Made by a program: the position numbers and the translations under genes
Origin: Planctomycetota bacterium
GTDB taxonomy: Bacteria; Planctomycetota; Planctomycetia; Pirellulales; PLA5
DNA: 39,724 nucleotides
Assembly: GCA_003576845.1 (NCBI GenBank)
Contig: QEVJ01000091.1
Span: 1 to 39,724, forward strand
Direction of reading: 5' to 3'
The notes under the pieces: generated by a model
Seen by the model: the letters and a program-made list of their open reading frames with translations, nothing else
What the model was told of the DNA's origin: nothing
Database searches by the model: none
In this document: piece after piece, positions 33,451-39,493 of the stretch
Layout of the letters: every line of letters starts with the position of its first letter
How positions within the stretch are numbered: position 1 is the stretch's first letter

Positions 33451-34104
33451 CTAGACGATTCCCAATTCGGCCAACAGACTCCGCACCGTCGGTCGCGGGT
33501 TCGACCAGAGCCATTCGTTGCGGAGGTAGAAGCCCGGCAGCACTGTCGACGGGAGTTTGCCGTCGACTTCCCCGATGCGGGCGTATTTGCCGTCCGCGCC
33601 GAGCGCGTTCGCTTCCGTCCGCTGCGAAAACGGGTCGACGATCCAGTATTCGCGCACGCCGCTCACTTCGTATTCCAGATACTTTTCGCGCCAGTCGCGC
33701 GACTGGCTGTCGTGCGATACGATCTCGACGGCCAAGTCGGGCGGGCCTTCGAGATAGGTTCGCTGCATCAGCGACCGGCGGGCTGCCGCGACATAGATGA
33801 TATCCGGCACGCGCCGCGTCTTCCCACCGCACAAGCGAATCATGTAATCGAAAGCTACCATGCCGCCCAGGTTCTTTCCTTCGATGAAATCGCCCATGAG
33901 ACGAATCAGCCAGCCGTTAATATCCGTGTGCTCTAAGCTGACGGGCGGCATCATGTGGACGACTCCATTGACCCATTCGGCGTGCAGGCCCTCACTCGCG
34001 AGAATCCATGCTTCGAATTGGTCCTCACTCATCCGCGGCGGCGCAATGGAAACCGGCCCGGCGTCCCACGAGTTCACGTCCGCGGCGTGATTGACGGTGG
34101 ACAT
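33451..34104 (-). CDS. Uma2 (DUF820) family endonuclease-like protein
   Basis: The product is 217 residues of the PD-(D/E)XK nuclease superfamily. RMSEDQFEAWILASEG opens the family; RVPDIIYV (D101), PPDLAVEIVSHDSQSRDWRE (D123, E127) and K141 in EKYLEYEVSGVREYWIVDP form the predicted catalytic core. Uma2 proteins are expanded in planctomycetes and cyanobacteria; their biological role is uncertain and they often occur as orphans. The start at 34104 is supported by AGAGGA six bases upstream. The gene converges on the LamG protein gene with a 24-bp gap. Confidence 0.88.
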   Translation of the reverse strand: MSTVNHAADVNSWDAGPVSIAPPRMSEDQFEAWILASEGLHAEWVNGVVHMMPPVSLEHTDINGWLIRLMGDFIEGKNLGGMVAFDYMIRLCGGKTRRVPDIIYVAAARRSLMQRTYLEGPPDLAVEIVSHDSQSRDWREKYLEYEVSGVREYWIVDPFSQRTEANALGADGKYARIGEVDGKLPSTVLPGFYLRNEWLWSNPRPTVRSLLAELGIV

Positions 34105-34228
34105 TGCAATTCCTCTCGGCTCGCCCATTGGCCGTTGGTTTCAAGAGACCCTGCAACGGCCATTGTAGCAAACGTCGCGCGGGTGAGGCGACGTTGCTCG
34201 CGCGGCGTTTTGGCCGGCGGGCGGATTC

Positions 34229-34260: not shown

Positions 34261-35712
34261 CTATTGCGCCACGGGCACAATGCTTGCCCCACCCTTCGTC
34301 GCTGCTTGGGCGTCGATCTTCTTGGCTAGATCGACTTGCAGCTTCGTCAGCTCCGCGGCCAGGCGGATGCTCTCGCCGTAATGCTTCTTGAAGTCGGCGT
34401 GAAGCTGGGCCTGTTGCGCGGTGAGGTCGTCGAGATACTTTTTCACCACGTCGCGGTCGCGTTTCATCTTTTCGAGGTCCGCCTTGAGGCCCGTCTCTTC
34501 CTTCATGAGCGAGACCAAGCGGACTTCGTTGGCGTCCTTGATCGCCGCGTCGACGCGGGCCGTCTGGGCCTTCACCTGCGTGCTGCGGTCGGCCAGCTCG
34601 AACAACCGCACGTTGAGCACCCGCCGCGTGTTCTCGTAATTCCGCAGCGGACGGACGTAAATGCCCGTGTTGTCGACGATCTCGGCCTCGTGCTGGGCGA
34701 CGAGTTCTTGGGCCTTTTCGCTGTTGACGAGGATCGTCGCGGGATGCTCGTCGTCGCCGCTATGCAGGGTCTGCGTGAACTTTTCGCCTTTGGCGTCCGT
34801 GAATTCGAGCGTGGTTTCCTTGGTAATCTTCACCGTTTTGAAGACGCGGTCGGCCGGATCGCCCGGCTTGGCGGGCGTGCCGTCGCGCAGGTACTCTTCG
34901 AGGAGCGCGCTGTATGCGGCCGCATCCAAGCCCGTCGCGGCCTGAGGAATCAGCATGGTAAGTTCGTCCTTGGAAAGTCCGCGAAACGCTTCGTGCGAAT
35001 CGACCGGCATGATGCTGCGGACGATCCAGTCGCCGGCCTTGGCGGCGAGGGCTTGCTGCTGGTCGGGGGCGAGCGTTTCGGTCAGCGCGAGCTTGACCGA
35101 ACTGCCATCGACGGAAGTCACCTTGAATTCGCCGACGAAGCTGCCACCCTCCTTAGCCTCGAAAATGTACAGCGGCATGTTCGGCACGATCTGAACCGGG
35201 CCGGGCGCGGTGATGTTGACTTCCGCATTCGGCAGCGCGAGTGTGCCCGTGCCGTACCACGTTTTGCCGCGGTCCTCGCGAACCGCTCCGAGTTCATAGC
35301 GAAGCTGACGGTTGCCCATCGCGAGCAGCTCGTTGTCGGCGCTCGTGGCGGCAAGCTCATCGGTCGGCACGGCGTCGCCTTCTGCGGCATCGCCACTCTC
35401 GTCACCCGTTTTGTCGCTCGGAGCGGAATCGGAACCGGCCGCCGCGGCCTCGCGATCGCCGAGCAGCAGCTTCGTGTGTTCCGCCTCCGCGTCGGCGAGT
35501 TCCTGCTGTTTCTTGTTGTAGGCCGTCCGCCACGACGCATGTGTCTTGAGCGTCATTGCTGCGAGGATGAAGAACGTCACCGCGCCCAGGAACACGCCGA
35601 CCACAGTCAGGACGGTCGGCACGCGCCAGACTTGCGCTCCGAGGACGCAAAACACGATGGCGGCGATCGCGAACAGGCCCAAGAGAGCCTGCCAAAGGAT
35701 GGGACTATCCAT
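34261..35712 (-). CDS. Membrane-anchored coiled-coil protein of unknown function
   Basis: The product is 483 residues. Two N-terminal transmembrane helices (about 5-27 and 32-54) lead to a short coiled coil (TAYNKKQQELADAEAEHTKL). An acidic low-complexity segment follows (about 90-125). A beta-rich domain (NAEVNITAPGPVQIVPNMPL with YIFEAKEGGSFVGEFKVTSV) and a mixed region come next. The C-terminal 130 residues form a long coiled coil (LKADLEKMKRDRDVVKKYLD and AELTKLQVDLAKKI). No enzymatic motif is visible, and I do not recognise the family. Transcription has a strong promoter and a 56-base leader. The coiled coils suggest oligomerisation at the membrane. Confidence 0.75.
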   Translation of the reverse strand: MDSPILWQALLGLFAIAAIVFCVLGAQVWRVPTVLTVVGVFLGAVTFFILAAMTLKTHASWRTAYNKKQQELADAEAEHTKLLLGDREAAAAGSDSAPSDKTGDESGDAAEGDAVPTDELAATSADNELLAMGNRQLRYELGAVREDRGKTWYGTGTLALPNAEVNITAPGPVQIVPNMPLYIFEAKEGGSFVGEFKVTSVDGSSVKLALTETLAPDQQQALAAKAGDWIVRSIMPVDSHEAFRGLSKDELTMLIPQAATGLDAAAYSALLEEYLRDGTPAKPGDPADRVFKTVKITKETTLEFTDAKGEKFTQTLHSGDDEHPATILVNSEKAQELVAQHEAEIVDNTGIYVRPLRNYENTRRVLNVRLFELADRSTQVKAQTARVDAAIKDANEVRLVSLMKEETGLKADLEKMKRDRDVVKKYLDDLTAQQAQLHADFKKHYGESIRLAAELTKLQVDLAKKIDAQAATKGGASIVPVAQ

Positions 35713-35803: not shown

Positions 35804-36008
35804 GTTTCGCCGCATGGTTTTGGTGCGGCGCAAGTCATTACGCAGCATGGCGTTGCGACTCGCCACGGGGTTCGCTGTTGAGCGTCTTGGGGCCGCACGA
35901 CCGGCACAATCGTTCAAGTCCGAACGGTCCACGCCCGAAAATGTTCACCGCCGAATCGTTTGGCCCATTAAACGGTTCGCCATAACTCCAGGCGAGTATT
36001 GCCGCCGC

Positions 36009-36608
36009 ATGTCGCCGAATCCTGTTGCCAGCGCCGAACACCCCGGGTCCGCCCACGAAGCGGCGTGCCGGCTGATTGCGCTCGTCCACGCCGTCGAAGG
36101 CTGCTCCCGAGCTCTCCGTGGCGCGATCGAGCAACTTGCCGCCCGGCGCGAACTGACGACGACTCAGCTTACCGTGCTTTGGGCCTGCGGCTCCGCCGCG
36201 GACGGCGTCGGCCAATCGCGGCTTGCCGCCCAAATCGGCGTTTCGCCCGCCCAAGCGAGTGCTCTGGTCGAACAACTGCGTAGCCGCGGGCTGCTCGAAC
36301 CGCGCCGAGCAACGGACGACCGCCGCCGGCAGCATTGGTCGCTCACCGTCAAGGGGCGAGAGTTGGTCGCGTCCGCGGCGGATGACCTTGGCCGCCTCGC
36401 CCACCGCCTCGATTTCGGGATCGGCGAGTGCCGAACGCGCGAGTTGACCGCGAGCCTTGCCGAATTCGCATCCACAGTCGAAGGTTCGCCACGTTCAGAC
36501 GGCGATGCGTTTCCCCGCCTTCATGCGGCGTGCGATCCCGCGACCAACGTCGCCGTGCCTGGCACGCGTGTGCCTTCGCGCTCGTCGAGCGAGGAGGTTG
36601 GCCGATGA
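36009..36608 (+). CDS. MarR-family transcriptional regulator
   Basis: The product is 199 residues. Helical dimerisation segments flank a winged helix: RELTTTQLTVLWACGSA, then VGQSRLAAQIGVSPAQASAL as the helix-turn-helix, VEQLRSRGLLEPRRATDDRR as the wing (the conserved DxRR motif is present), and LTVKGRELVASAADDL after it. The C-terminus has a 40-residue polar extension. MarR proteins usually repress neighbouring efflux genes and release on ligand binding. Here the stop overlaps the start of the TolC-family gene (ATGA at 36605-36608), making the pair an operon. ATG 36009 is chosen because upstream frame is Arg-rich and overlaps the divergent promoter region. Confidence 0.85.
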   Translation: MSPNPVASAEHPGSAHEAACRLIALVHAVEGCSRALRGAIEQLAARRELTTTQLTVLWACGSAADGVGQSRLAAQIGVSPAQASALVEQLRSRGLLEPRRATDDRRRQHWSLTVKGRELVASAADDLGRLAHRLDFGIGECRTRELTASLAEFASTVEGSPRSDGDAFPRLHAACDPATNVAVPGTRVPSRSSSEEVGR

Positions 36609-39493
36609 AACCGCGCGAATCGCATCGGCTGCCGGTCATTGCGGTGCTTCTCGCTTCGAGCGTGGCGGCGTTCGCTGGTTGTTCGCCCGGCTACTATCGT
36701 CGCCAGGCCGACGACGACGTTTACCGCCTCGTTCGCAAAGTCGGCGGCGATCCACGCTGGCCGCTCGTCGATTTCTCCGTCGATCCGGATCCGCGTTCCC
36801 GCATGGCGAACCCGAACAATCCCGATTGCGAGCCGATGCCGCCCGACGATCCGGATTCGCACAAGCTGATGCACTGCGTCGACGGCAAGAAAGGCTTTCC
36901 CTGCTGGCACGCACACGGCGATACGCCCTACGTCGAGAACCCCGCGTGGCTCGACTATCTCGAGCGCGACGAGAACGGGGTGATCGTGCTGAACATGGCG
37001 GACAGCGTGAAGCTTGCCCTGCTCAATTCGCCGCAATATCAGACCGAACTGGAAGACCTGTATCTCTCGGCTCTCGATGTGACGTTCGAGCGGTTCCGTT
37101 TCGACGTGCAGTTTTTCGGCGGCTATTCGGCCACCTACACCGCCGACGGTCCCTTGCGCAGTGGCGATTCGTCGAGCACGCTGGAACTCGCCACGTTTCC
37201 CGCGGGAACCGACGTTCAGATGCGCAAGCTCCTCACGACGGGCGGCGAGCTCGTCGTGGGGCTGGCCAACTCGATTGTCTGGCAATTCTCCGGACCGGAC
37301 ACGACGACGTACAATTCGCTCCTCGACTTCTCGCTGGTGCAACCGCTGTTGCGGGGCGCCGGCCGAGACGTGGTCATGGAGCGGCTCACGATTTCGGAAC
37401 GCACGCTGCTGGCCAACGTTCGCCAGATGGAGCGCTATCGCCAGGCGTTCTCGACCGACATCGTCACCGGCCGAAACGCCGGCCAAGGTCCGTCGCGTCG
37501 CGGCGGATTCTTCGGCGGCAGCGGTCTGGAAGGTTTTACCGGCGTCGGCGGCGGCGGATTTGGTCGCGTAGGGAATGCAGGCTTCGGCGGAGGCAACGAC
37601 GGCGGCGGCATCGCGGGCGGCGCCGGCGCGGCACGGGCCGGCGGGTATCTCGGCCTGTTGCAAACGCAGCAAGAGATCAAGAATCTCCGCGACAATGTGG
37701 CGGCCTTGCGCGACAGTCTCGAACGTCTCGAAATGCAAGCCAAGTCGCCCCGCCCGCGCACGCCCGAGGCGATTCGCGCCCAGTTCCAGGTCGAGCTCGC
37801 CCGCCAGGCGCTGCACAACGCGAGTAGCCGCCTCCTCACTGCGGAGAACGACTACCAGGCGCAGCTCGACAACTACAAGATCACGCTCGGCATGCCACCC
37901 GACTTGCCGGTGCAGGTCAAGGACAATCTGCTCGACGGATTCAACCTGATCGACGACTCGCTCACGCAACTCCAATCGGCGGGCGACCACGTGCTGATCG
38001 ACTTGCAGCCGCCGCCGACCGAAGAAGCGACCTATCGCACCGGCGTAGAGAAGTATGTCGCGGAACTCGAGCGCAGCCAAAAAGCGCTGGCCGAAACGCT
38101 GGAACGCCACGCGGCGGCGGCGGACAAACTGGCCGGCGTCCGCGGCGACCTGCAAGAGCTGCTCGACAACGCGGACGAGCGCCGCGCCTGGCTCGGTCGG
38201 CTCGAAGAACGGTTCGCCGACCGACCCGACCTGGTCGAAACGCAGACGCTCAGCGTCGAACGGTTCGACACGGAAGTCAATCGTCTGAAAGCTCGCTTCG
38301 CCGACATGGAGCGGAGCTTCGAAGGCACGCGCGAGAAGCTACTGGCCCAGAGCAAGTTCGTCGAGGAGCAACTCGCCGCCCGGCGGCAGGAACTGGCCGG
38401 CCTGGCGCCGGACGCGATGGGCGACAAACTCCGGCTTACCGCCGACCGCAAGAGACAATTCGACGTAACCAGCGAGCTCGTCCGCCAGCTTTCCGACGAC
38501 ATCGCGGAAATGTGGATCGTCGAAGCGAAAGCACGGCTCGAATCGATCGTGCTTCCGCCCGTGAATATCGACGCGGACAACGCGCTCGGCGTGGCGAGCA
38601 AGTATCGGTACGACTGGATGAACGCTCGCGCGGCGCTGGTCGACTCGTGGCGACTGATCCACTTCAACGCCGACAACCTGGAGAGCGATCTGGACATCGT
38701 GTTTAGCGGCGACATGGGCACGATCGGTAGCAATCCCGTCAAGTTCGACGCGGCGACGGGACGTCTTCGGGCCGGCGTTCGGTTCGATGCGCCACTGACG
38801 CGGATGGCCGAGCGCAACAACTATCGGCAGGCGCTCATCGAATACAACCAGGCGCGGCGATCGTACTACACGTTCGTCGACCGCGTGAACCAGAGCCTTC
38901 GCGGCACGCTGCGGACGATCGAATTGAACCAGGTGAACTTCGAGCTGCGCCGAAGTGCGGTCCACACCGCGCTCACGCAAGTCGACCTTGCGCGCAAGCA
39001 GTTGCTCGCGCCGATTCGCCCGAACGTCGAAGGCCCGGTGGGCACGCCGTCGGCGGCGGCGGCCGGTTCGCAGTCGGGCGACTTGGGCCGCGACTTAGTG
39101 ACCGCGCTGGCCGACCTTACGCAAGTGCAGAACGATTTTCTCAGCGTGTGGCTCAACTACCGCGTGCTCCGCATGGGGTTGGATCTCGATCTGGGCGTGA
39201 TGCAAGTCGATCGTAATGGCATGTGGATCGAGCCGGAGGAGTACAACCTCGCGGCGCTGTTGGGCGAGGATTATTTTCCGCCGGAAGACTTGGGCCCTGC
39301 GAGCGAAGCGGGCGACAACAGCGATGCGCCGCGTCCGCCGGAGGAAAGAGTCGAGGAATTGCTCCCACCGCCGGCAAGTGCTCCCGGCGATTCCGAACAC
39401 GATGCACCGATGCCCAAGGAACGCGAAGCCGCAGCGACGATCGACTCGGAAGACGCCGCCTGGCGACGCCGGTCGCGCCGGGACGAGGCGTAG
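36605..39493 (+). CDS. TolC-family outer-membrane factor lipoprotein with large insertion
   Basis: The product is 962 residues, about twice a normal TolC. The signal peptide ends in VAAFAGC, a lipobox. LNMADSVKLALLNSPQYQTE at about 130-150 is the usual TolC/OEP start. A beta-barrel hairpin segment (about 165-260, with SLVQPLLRGAGRDVVMERL, the typical OEP turn) leads to a Gly-rich region (about 288-350) and then helices. Residues about 475-655 form a long coiled coil not found in typical family members. The second OEP repeat resumes at about 680 (NARAALVDSWRLIHFNADNL, then DAPLTRMAERNNYRQALIEY) and ends with DLTQVQNDFLSVWLNYRVLR. An acidic Pro-rich tail follows. It should form the outer-membrane channel of an efflux or type I export system; no inner-membrane partner is adjacent. 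Confidence 0.85.
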   Translation: MKPRESHRLPVIAVLLASSVAAFAGCSPGYYRRQADDDVYRLVRKVGGDPRWPLVDFSVDPDPRSRMANPNNPDCEPMPPDDPDSHKLMHCVDGKKGFPCWHAHGDTPYVENPAWLDYLERDENGVIVLNMADSVKLALLNSPQYQTELEDLYLSALDVTFERFRFDVQFFGGYSATYTADGPLRSGDSSSTLELATFPAGTDVQMRKLLTTGGELVVGLANSIVWQFSGPDTTTYNSLLDFSLVQPLLRGAGRDVVMERLTISERTLLANVRQMERYRQAFSTDIVTGRNAGQGPSRRGGFFGGSGLEGFTGVGGGGFGRVGNAGFGGGNDGGGIAGGAGAARAGGYLGLLQTQQEIKNLRDNVAALRDSLERLEMQAKSPRPRTPEAIRAQFQVELARQALHNASSRLLTAENDYQAQLDNYKITLGMPPDLPVQVKDNLLDGFNLIDDSLTQLQSAGDHVLIDLQPPPTEEATYRTGVEKYVAELERSQKALAETLERHAAAADKLAGVRGDLQELLDNADERRAWLGRLEERFADRPDLVETQTLSVERFDTEVNRLKARFADMERSFEGTREKLLAQSKFVEEQLAARRQELAGLAPDAMGDKLRLTADRKRQFDVTSELVRQLSDDIAEMWIVEAKARLESIVLPPVNIDADNALGVASKYRYDWMNARAALVDSWRLIHFNADNLESDLDIVFSGDMGTIGSNPVKFDAATGRLRAGVRFDAPLTRMAERNNYRQALIEYNQARRSYYTFVDRVNQSLRGTLRTIELNQVNFELRRSAVHTALTQVDLARKQLLAPIRPNVEGPVGTPSAAAAGSQSGDLGRDLVTALADLTQVQNDFLSVWLNYRVLRMGLDLDLGVMQVDRNGMWIEPEEYNLAALLGEDYFPPEDLGPASEAGDNSDAPRPPEERVEELLPPPASAPGDSEHDAPMPKEREAAATIDSEDAAWRRRSRRDEA

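Follow-up and report, generated by a model that had tools for sequence, protein, structure and literature searches.

Ducts of the TolC type, the outer-membrane factors of tripartite exporters, are described in an excerpt of the PubMed Central (PMC) article PMC8277102 as a beta barrel of about 40 angstroms joined to a periplasmic domain of about 100 angstroms, with an equatorial domain that encircles the barrel at mid-height like a belt. This equatorial domain, the least conserved part of TolC-type ducts, is variable and has been proposed, in passages of PMC8277102 and PMC13082787, to contact either the peptidoglycan or the adaptor; the first of these passages also relates that an exchange of the H4-H5 loop of TolC alters drug susceptibility and transport by AcrAB-TolC. 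Here, we examine a stretch of DNA of 39,724 nucleotides, hereafter the window, which is the whole of contig QEVJ01000091.1 of a Planctomycetota bacterium of the order Pirellulales (assembly GCA_003576845.1). Near its end, on the plus strand, lies the single copy in this genome of a gene for an outer-membrane factor lipoprotein of TolC fold (36605..39493, 962 amino acids), whose stop codon is followed by only 231 bases of contig and which is preceded by the gene of a MarR-family regulator. We argue that this protein is probably the exit duct of a MacAB-type tripartite exporter, powered by an ATP-binding cassette (ABC) ATPase and linked to the MarR gene, and that the coiled-coil insert which it carries at equatorial height would form a collar outside the conduit and brace the duct. 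The machine itself is known; what appears to be new is the equatorial coiled-coil collar on a TolC-type duct and its spread through the class Planctomycetia, and searches of open-licence PMC papers listed none with a title or abstract opening that mentions such an insert or MacAB-type ducts of planctomycetes.

The membership of the duct in the TolC family rests on its fold and on profile alignment, because its match to Pfam OEP is only sub-threshold (17.6 bits against a gathering cut-off of 22, which is a database criterion and not a structural one). In a genome-wide OEP search the duct ranks last of 17 matches. Among its relatives L130 (30.7 bits) and L160 (42.2 bits) pass the cut-off, L190 gives no match, and 12 of the 15 members of one family alignment are matched at E <=0.01. 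Searches of PDB sequences returned only low-scoring coiled-coil or unrelated matches, and PHROGs contained no match. An AlphaFold2 model of the mature residues 26-905 as a single chain, computed from 77 aligned sequences (the window's and 76 relatives from 80 named loci; L188, L157 and L161, whose start the script did not find, and, by hand, L160 were left out), reached a mean predicted local distance difference test score (pLDDT) of 84.3 and a predicted template modelling score (pTM) of 0.83. VIA-align places model residues 104-851 on residues 1-408/414 of TolC, with 396-400 residues aligned and a Z of about 16 (15.7 for 1ek9, 16.0 for 7ng8), and gives a Z of about 14 for OprM; Foldseek agrees on a TolC-type fold, with E values down to 4.9e-09. 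The two-repeat beta/alpha-barrel protomer of an outer-membrane factor is recognizable as a whole in this model, and the sequence opens with the signal peptide and lipobox cysteine expected of a lipoprotein of this group (36605..36682; lipobox AGC at residues 24-26, Cys26), of which the GC is conserved in the aligned relatives.

The coding sequence can be divided into a series of parts. The lipidated cysteine begins an N-terminal arm (residues 26-129, 36680..36991, pLDDT 88-96) with a conserved 'PMPPDD' motif; it is about 104 residues long here and 103-109 residues long in 51 relatives. The first part of repeat 1 (residues 130-288, 36992..37468), placed by the model and the TolC alignment, comprises H2, beta strands and the upper half of H3, and is followed in mid-H3 by a Gly-rich insert (residues 289-345, 37469..37639), in which the composition is extreme (27 Gly among the 61 residues 286-346) and the model is least confident (pLDDT <50 at model residues 277-314). 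The lower half of H3, the tip and H4 make up the second part of repeat 1 (residues 346-435, 37640..37909). In place of a short inter-repeat linker, the H4-H5 equatorial loop then carries the coiled-coil insert (residues 440-655, 37922..38569), with predicted helices of 45, 14, 49 and 40 residues that together span 171 residues (477-647 of the protein, 452-622 of the model) at a pLDDT of mostly 85-96. Repeat 2 (residues 656-875, 38570..39229), located by hhalign and the model, contains H6, beta strands, a 71-residue H7 and H8, and the protein ends in a low-complexity tail (residues 876-962, 39230..39490), which has low pLDDT at model residues 870-880 and is variable in relatives (open reading frames (ORFs) of <800 amino acids were left out of the alignment used for tail and lipobox). 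A first-pass annotation of this DNA had described an outer-membrane factor of about twice normal size, as is borne out by its 962 amino acids against the 493 of the E. coli TolC precursor, and had placed both inserts between the two repeats. The latter is correct for the coil; the Gly-rich stretch lies inside repeat 1, and the N-terminal arm also contributes to the extra size, besides stretch and coil.

The same annotation had suggested that the insert lengthens the periplasmic tunnel so as to span the wide planctomycete periplasm, an idea that gains some appeal from the great enlargement of which this compartment is capable (PMC5394234, in excerpt) and from a coil that is ordered in the model and found lineage-wide. 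The alignment to TolC leads elsewhere. In an hhalign comparison of the duct family with a TolC-led alignment of six sequences, the second half of repeat 1 aligned to TolC precursor residues 131-210 (E 5.7e-07) and repeat 2 to residues 233-434 (E 9e-05), with the upper part of repeat 1 alone reaching only E 0.64; the barrel helices so covered show no indels of note against E. coli TolC, and the gaps fall at tips and linkers. It follows from this alignment that the coil occupies the H4-H5 linker, at the equator and not at the tip, and that the Gly-rich insert interrupts H3 midway, at about TolC precursor residue 130. In the model, H3 (37 + 34 residues, split by the Gly-rich stretch) and H7 (71 residues in one piece) are of equal predicted length. 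Because the barrel helices are free of indels, H3 and H7 are equal and 396-400 residues superpose on TolC, both inserts are placed outside the TolC-like conduit, and the channel, as aligned and modelled, is of ordinary TolC length. Moreover, compact ducts without the insert serve the same type of operon, and the lengths of coil and adaptor are not correlated (Spearman rho 0.08, p 0.56, n=58; ORFs of <700 amino acids left out, duplicates between two locus sets counted once), so that the idea of a coil that tracks the adaptor was dropped as well. A lengthened tunnel, which we reject on profile alignment and helix lengths, appears to us scarcely credible. The opposite picture, that of a disordered domain outside the tunnel, fits the alignments as to position and the low pLDDT of the Gly-rich stretch, and does not fit the coil, which is confidently predicted.

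The insertion is by no means unique to this one protein. Matches to the duct family were found in 46 of 57 genomes of the same order (three of them, G011 and G016 included, with weak partial matches only), in 116 of 119 genomes of a class sample (E <=1e-30) and in 76 of 156 genomes of a phylum sample (E <=1e-20), where most of those outside the class cover just the repeat arms. In 84,980 species genomes that were scanned, 256 relatives were confirmed; the best 80 of these include 54 labelled as class Planctomycetia, 25 without a class label and one metagenome-assembled genome labelled Akkermansia muciniphila (L197), which is perhaps mislabelled. In 51 full-length relatives the repeat arms are of near-constant length and the inter-repeat segment is never <163 residues, and the same holds in a set of 125 (genes in relatives were called by a simple codon-usage script, with approximate starts). 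When 181 forms were measured uniformly (ORFs of <450 amino acids left out in these class-wide measurements, duplicates between two locus sets counted once), the coil site had 26-32 residues in 11 and 172-343 in 170, with none between. The compact cousins, from other planctomycete classes and with the same operon type (e.g. L249, L250, L252 and L266), lack both inserts, which are present or absent as whole blocks, and pass almost directly from family-model position 288-290 to position 346-357 and, further on, from about 432-452 to a point at about 603-614. The 'PMPPDD' motif of the arm is present in 166 of the 170 inserted forms and in none of the 11 compact ones, and coil and arm may go back to one evolutionary event. 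In almost every sampled genome of the class, then, an ordered coil has been grafted onto the equatorial site, and the coil-bearing and coil-less ducts of like operons constitute a natural plus/minus experiment on the equatorial belt. A separate variation concerns the tip of repeat 1, which has 80-97 residues in five class members (L262, L265, L306, L308 and L309), 16 in the window protein and most commonly 9; in those five ducts the adaptor-docking tip might be affected.

The identity of the partner pump is suggested by the operons of the relatives, in which the order is duct, adaptor, ATPase, permease. The adaptor matches HlyD_3/HlyD_D23, with TIGR01730 RND_mfp just below its cut-off, the ATPase is MacB/LolD-like and the permease carries MacB_PCD and FtsX, so that all the components of a MacAB-type exporter stand together with the duct. 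An adaptor and a permease follow co-directionally in 54 of the 98 loci with enough downstream sequence, and 46 of the 98 also have a separate ATPase. In the genome of the window (G000), a search for a matching resistance-nodulation-division (RND) or MacAB pump found MacAB-type homologs on other contigs, the best pair of adaptor and ATPase on C29 and the permease on C278, all interior to their contigs; the other genome of the genus (G001) has adaptor and ATPase on C60 and permease on C191. Trees join the pump genes of the two genomes and place nearest to them, by path, operon members with inserted ducts; no larger clade was starred. The fused ATPase-permease MacB of E. coli was not found in this genome, where the two genes are separate (C29, C278), nor in most relatives, and was found in L166. 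The pump is thus probably present in dispersed form and would be paired with the duct by homology; a MacAB-type exporter is the most likely machine in which the duct works, and the substrates could be toxic small molecules or peptides. The separation of the duct from pump genes in this genus, together with the many RND pump matches in the genome, could also be read as the mark of a duct shared by several inner-membrane pumps, RND and ABC, with the MacAB linkage as one use among others. We consider this improbable, given that at least four of the contigs here that encode RND pumps also carry OEP genes (C60, C113, C17 and C243) and that duct, adaptor and MacB-type pump have stayed linked in many relatives.

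The exporter clearly exceeds its E. coli counterpart in length in one part, the hairpin of the adaptor, and any extra reach across the periplasm would, on the alignments and models, lie there. In the first set, 68 of 69 adaptors, among them that of the window genome, have 158 residues between the lipoyl halves, against 92 in E. coli MacA; a second measure with different anchors differs by 3 residues (158 versus 155), and the alpha-hairpin segment, at >=155 residues against about 92, has some 1.7 times the length found in E. coli MacA. The adaptor of Lacipirellula limnantheis, modelled with AlphaFold2 from 37 sequences (pLDDT 86.6, pTM 0.59), has hairpin helices of 76 and 73 residues in a block of pLDDT 92-98, or about 110 angstroms at the helix rise of 1.5 angstroms per residue, and matches MacA (318 residues aligned, Z 18.9) and EmrA (Z 18.7) to about the same degree. 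Long adaptor hairpins as such are known, since an excerpt of PMC4158417 gives 127 angstroms for A. aeolicus EmrA and 67 for MacA. An adaptation to the span of the envelope would be better looked for in the adaptor hairpin than in the duct.

A rule by which the Gly-rich loop tracks hairpin length was also considered. Among the 60 loci of the first set with both values, 59 had the loop and a 158-residue hairpin, and one (L120) lacked the loop and had 194 residues. The permease tree requires a single change of hairpin state and two of the Gly label (L264 and L265 count there as loop-bearing by whole-length alignment and have no Gly-rich loop by domain coordinates), and because of the single hairpin transition the rule has no independent support; a whole-cell cause of the pairing is disfavoured because two genomes carry both types of system (G037 with L070/L120, G104 with L260/L261). 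Class-wide, 88 measured systems comprised 60 with the loop and 155 residues, 19 without it and >=190, nine with it and >=190, and none without it and 155; the hairpin values of L136 (158 versus 242, which makes its place among the nine unsure) and L263 (194 versus 276) differ between measures. The nine broke the rule, and what remains is that none of the 19 ducts without the loop was measured with a short hairpin. Four adaptors (L256, L258, L259 and L267) have 237-268 residues between the lipoyl halves (240-271 by the other measure), against the common 155 and 191.

Taken together, these observations suggest how the duct might function. Three chains would assemble into a TolC-like channel of the ordinary kind, which the beta barrel and the lipidated N-terminal arm would anchor in the outer membrane; the coil of about 200 residues and the Gly-rich loop, both branching off at equatorial height, would make up a collar on the outside of the conduit; and this collar would brace the duct in the periplasm, towards the peptidoglycan or the sheath of long adaptor hairpins, with the reach across the periplasm supplied by the hairpins. 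The coil might instead be a platform on which these hairpins, or a dedicated partner protein, dock, so that it would govern the recruitment of the pump and would not brace against peptidoglycan. The effect of the H4-H5 loop exchange on AcrAB-TolC transport (PMC8277102, in excerpt) and the long hairpins in the relatives and the window genome are consistent with such a platform, as is the finding that, at 61 of 110 distinct loci of the Pirellulales set (and at none of 53 others), a divergent gene upstream of the duct encodes a membrane coiled-coil protein. Coil and adaptor lengths, however, do not co-vary, the coil is poorly conserved, and the divergent neighbour also occurs in genomes without this duct, so that we regard docking as unlikely. 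In the window this neighbour (34261-35712, minus strand, 483 amino acids) has, read by eye, two N-terminal hydrophobic segments and a C-terminal coiled coil, and it has no match among Pfam, NCBIfam or PDB families. Its gene is present in 54 of the 57 genomes of the order, among them genomes without this duct, and is an orphan core gene of the order; its candidacy as a dedicated duct partner is weakened by this near-universality.

Upstream of the duct, the MarR-family regulator (36009..36608, plus strand, 199 amino acids) passes two Pfam cut-offs (MarR_2, 33.5 bits against 27; MarR, 26.1 against 24.6), and its stop overlaps the start of the duct in ATGA (36605..36608), the first-pass annotation having rightly joined the two genes by this overlap. 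Of 116 homologous loci whose upstream sequence suffices, the window included, 31 have a same-strand MarR gene immediately before the duct, and four more distant class members also retain it. The overlap recurs in frame as NTGA in 28 of the 31 pairs (14 ATGA, 6 GTGA, 5 TTGA and 3 CTGA) and is for this reason not due to chance. Such an arrangement would tie the duct translationally to the regulator, and MarR may well control the duct. Between the divergent gene and MarR there is an inverted repeat with 10-nucleotide arms and a 9-nucleotide loop (35805-35833), a candidate operator.

The braced exit duct of a MacAB-type exporter is thus favoured by the modelled fold, by the positions of the inserts and their conservation, by the pump operon of the relatives and by the long adaptor hairpin. 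Several observations count against it: MarR adjoins the duct in no more than those 31 of 116 loci; a co-directional adaptor plus permease is missing downstream in 44 of 98; in this genus the pump genes are not adjacent to the duct and are paired with it by homology only; the coil is poorly conserved, at 25% sequence identity as compared with 47-55% for the repeat arms; and the models are of single chains, duct and adaptor separately, which do not fix the direction of the coil. A bolder view would make the ducts of the class Planctomycetia structural elements of the envelope as well as exporters, in which collar, lipidated arm and adaptor hairpins, the last about 110 angstroms long, would keep the two membranes at a fixed spacing within a loose, invaginating envelope; the press-stud-like membrane contacts (crateriform structures) of which an excerpt of PMC5394234 speaks could then include them. 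We think this very improbable.

Elsewhere in the window, a putative nuclease of the Uma2 family (PF05685, 98.7 bits) is encoded at 33451-34128 on the minus strand. The same genome has two other oversized OEP proteins of a different type, on contigs C289 (L124, 7728-9941, 738 amino acids) and C141 (L125, 8436-10871, 812 amino acids).

Among known systems, the duct is closest to E. coli TolC and the OprM-type proteins of Pfam OEP (PF02321), with which it shares the two repeats, the beta strands, the long H3 and H7, the split H2/H4 and H6/H8 and an equatorial linker; its lipidated N-terminus is like those of OprM and CusC (PMC13082787 and PMC8277102, in excerpt). Unlike E. coli TolC, it has the coil of about 200 residues in the H4-H5 loop, the Gly-rich loop in mid-H3 and the conserved 104-residue arm, and its Pfam OEP score lies below the gathering cut-off. 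The relatives resemble MacAB-TolC in encoding a MacA-fold adaptor, a MacB-like ATPase and a MacB_PCD/FtsX permease beside the duct, and differ from it in that ATPase and permease are mostly two genes, the hairpin segment has at least 155 residues against about 92 in E. coli MacA, the duct gene stands in the operon and MarR is upstream in part of the loci. The very long two-helix hairpin recalls the EmrA and VceA adaptors (127 angstroms in A. aeolicus EmrA, in the excerpt of PMC4158417), whereas the planctomycete adaptor gene adjoins MacB-type genes and its product fits the MacA and EmrA folds about equally well. Finally, the YbjP-TolC complex of E. coli likewise has a lipoprotein element that bridges the distance between the outer membrane and the duct's equatorial domain (PMC13082787, in excerpt); YbjP is a separate protein, whereas the planctomycete arm and collar lie within the duct itself, and the likeness noted here is one of position.

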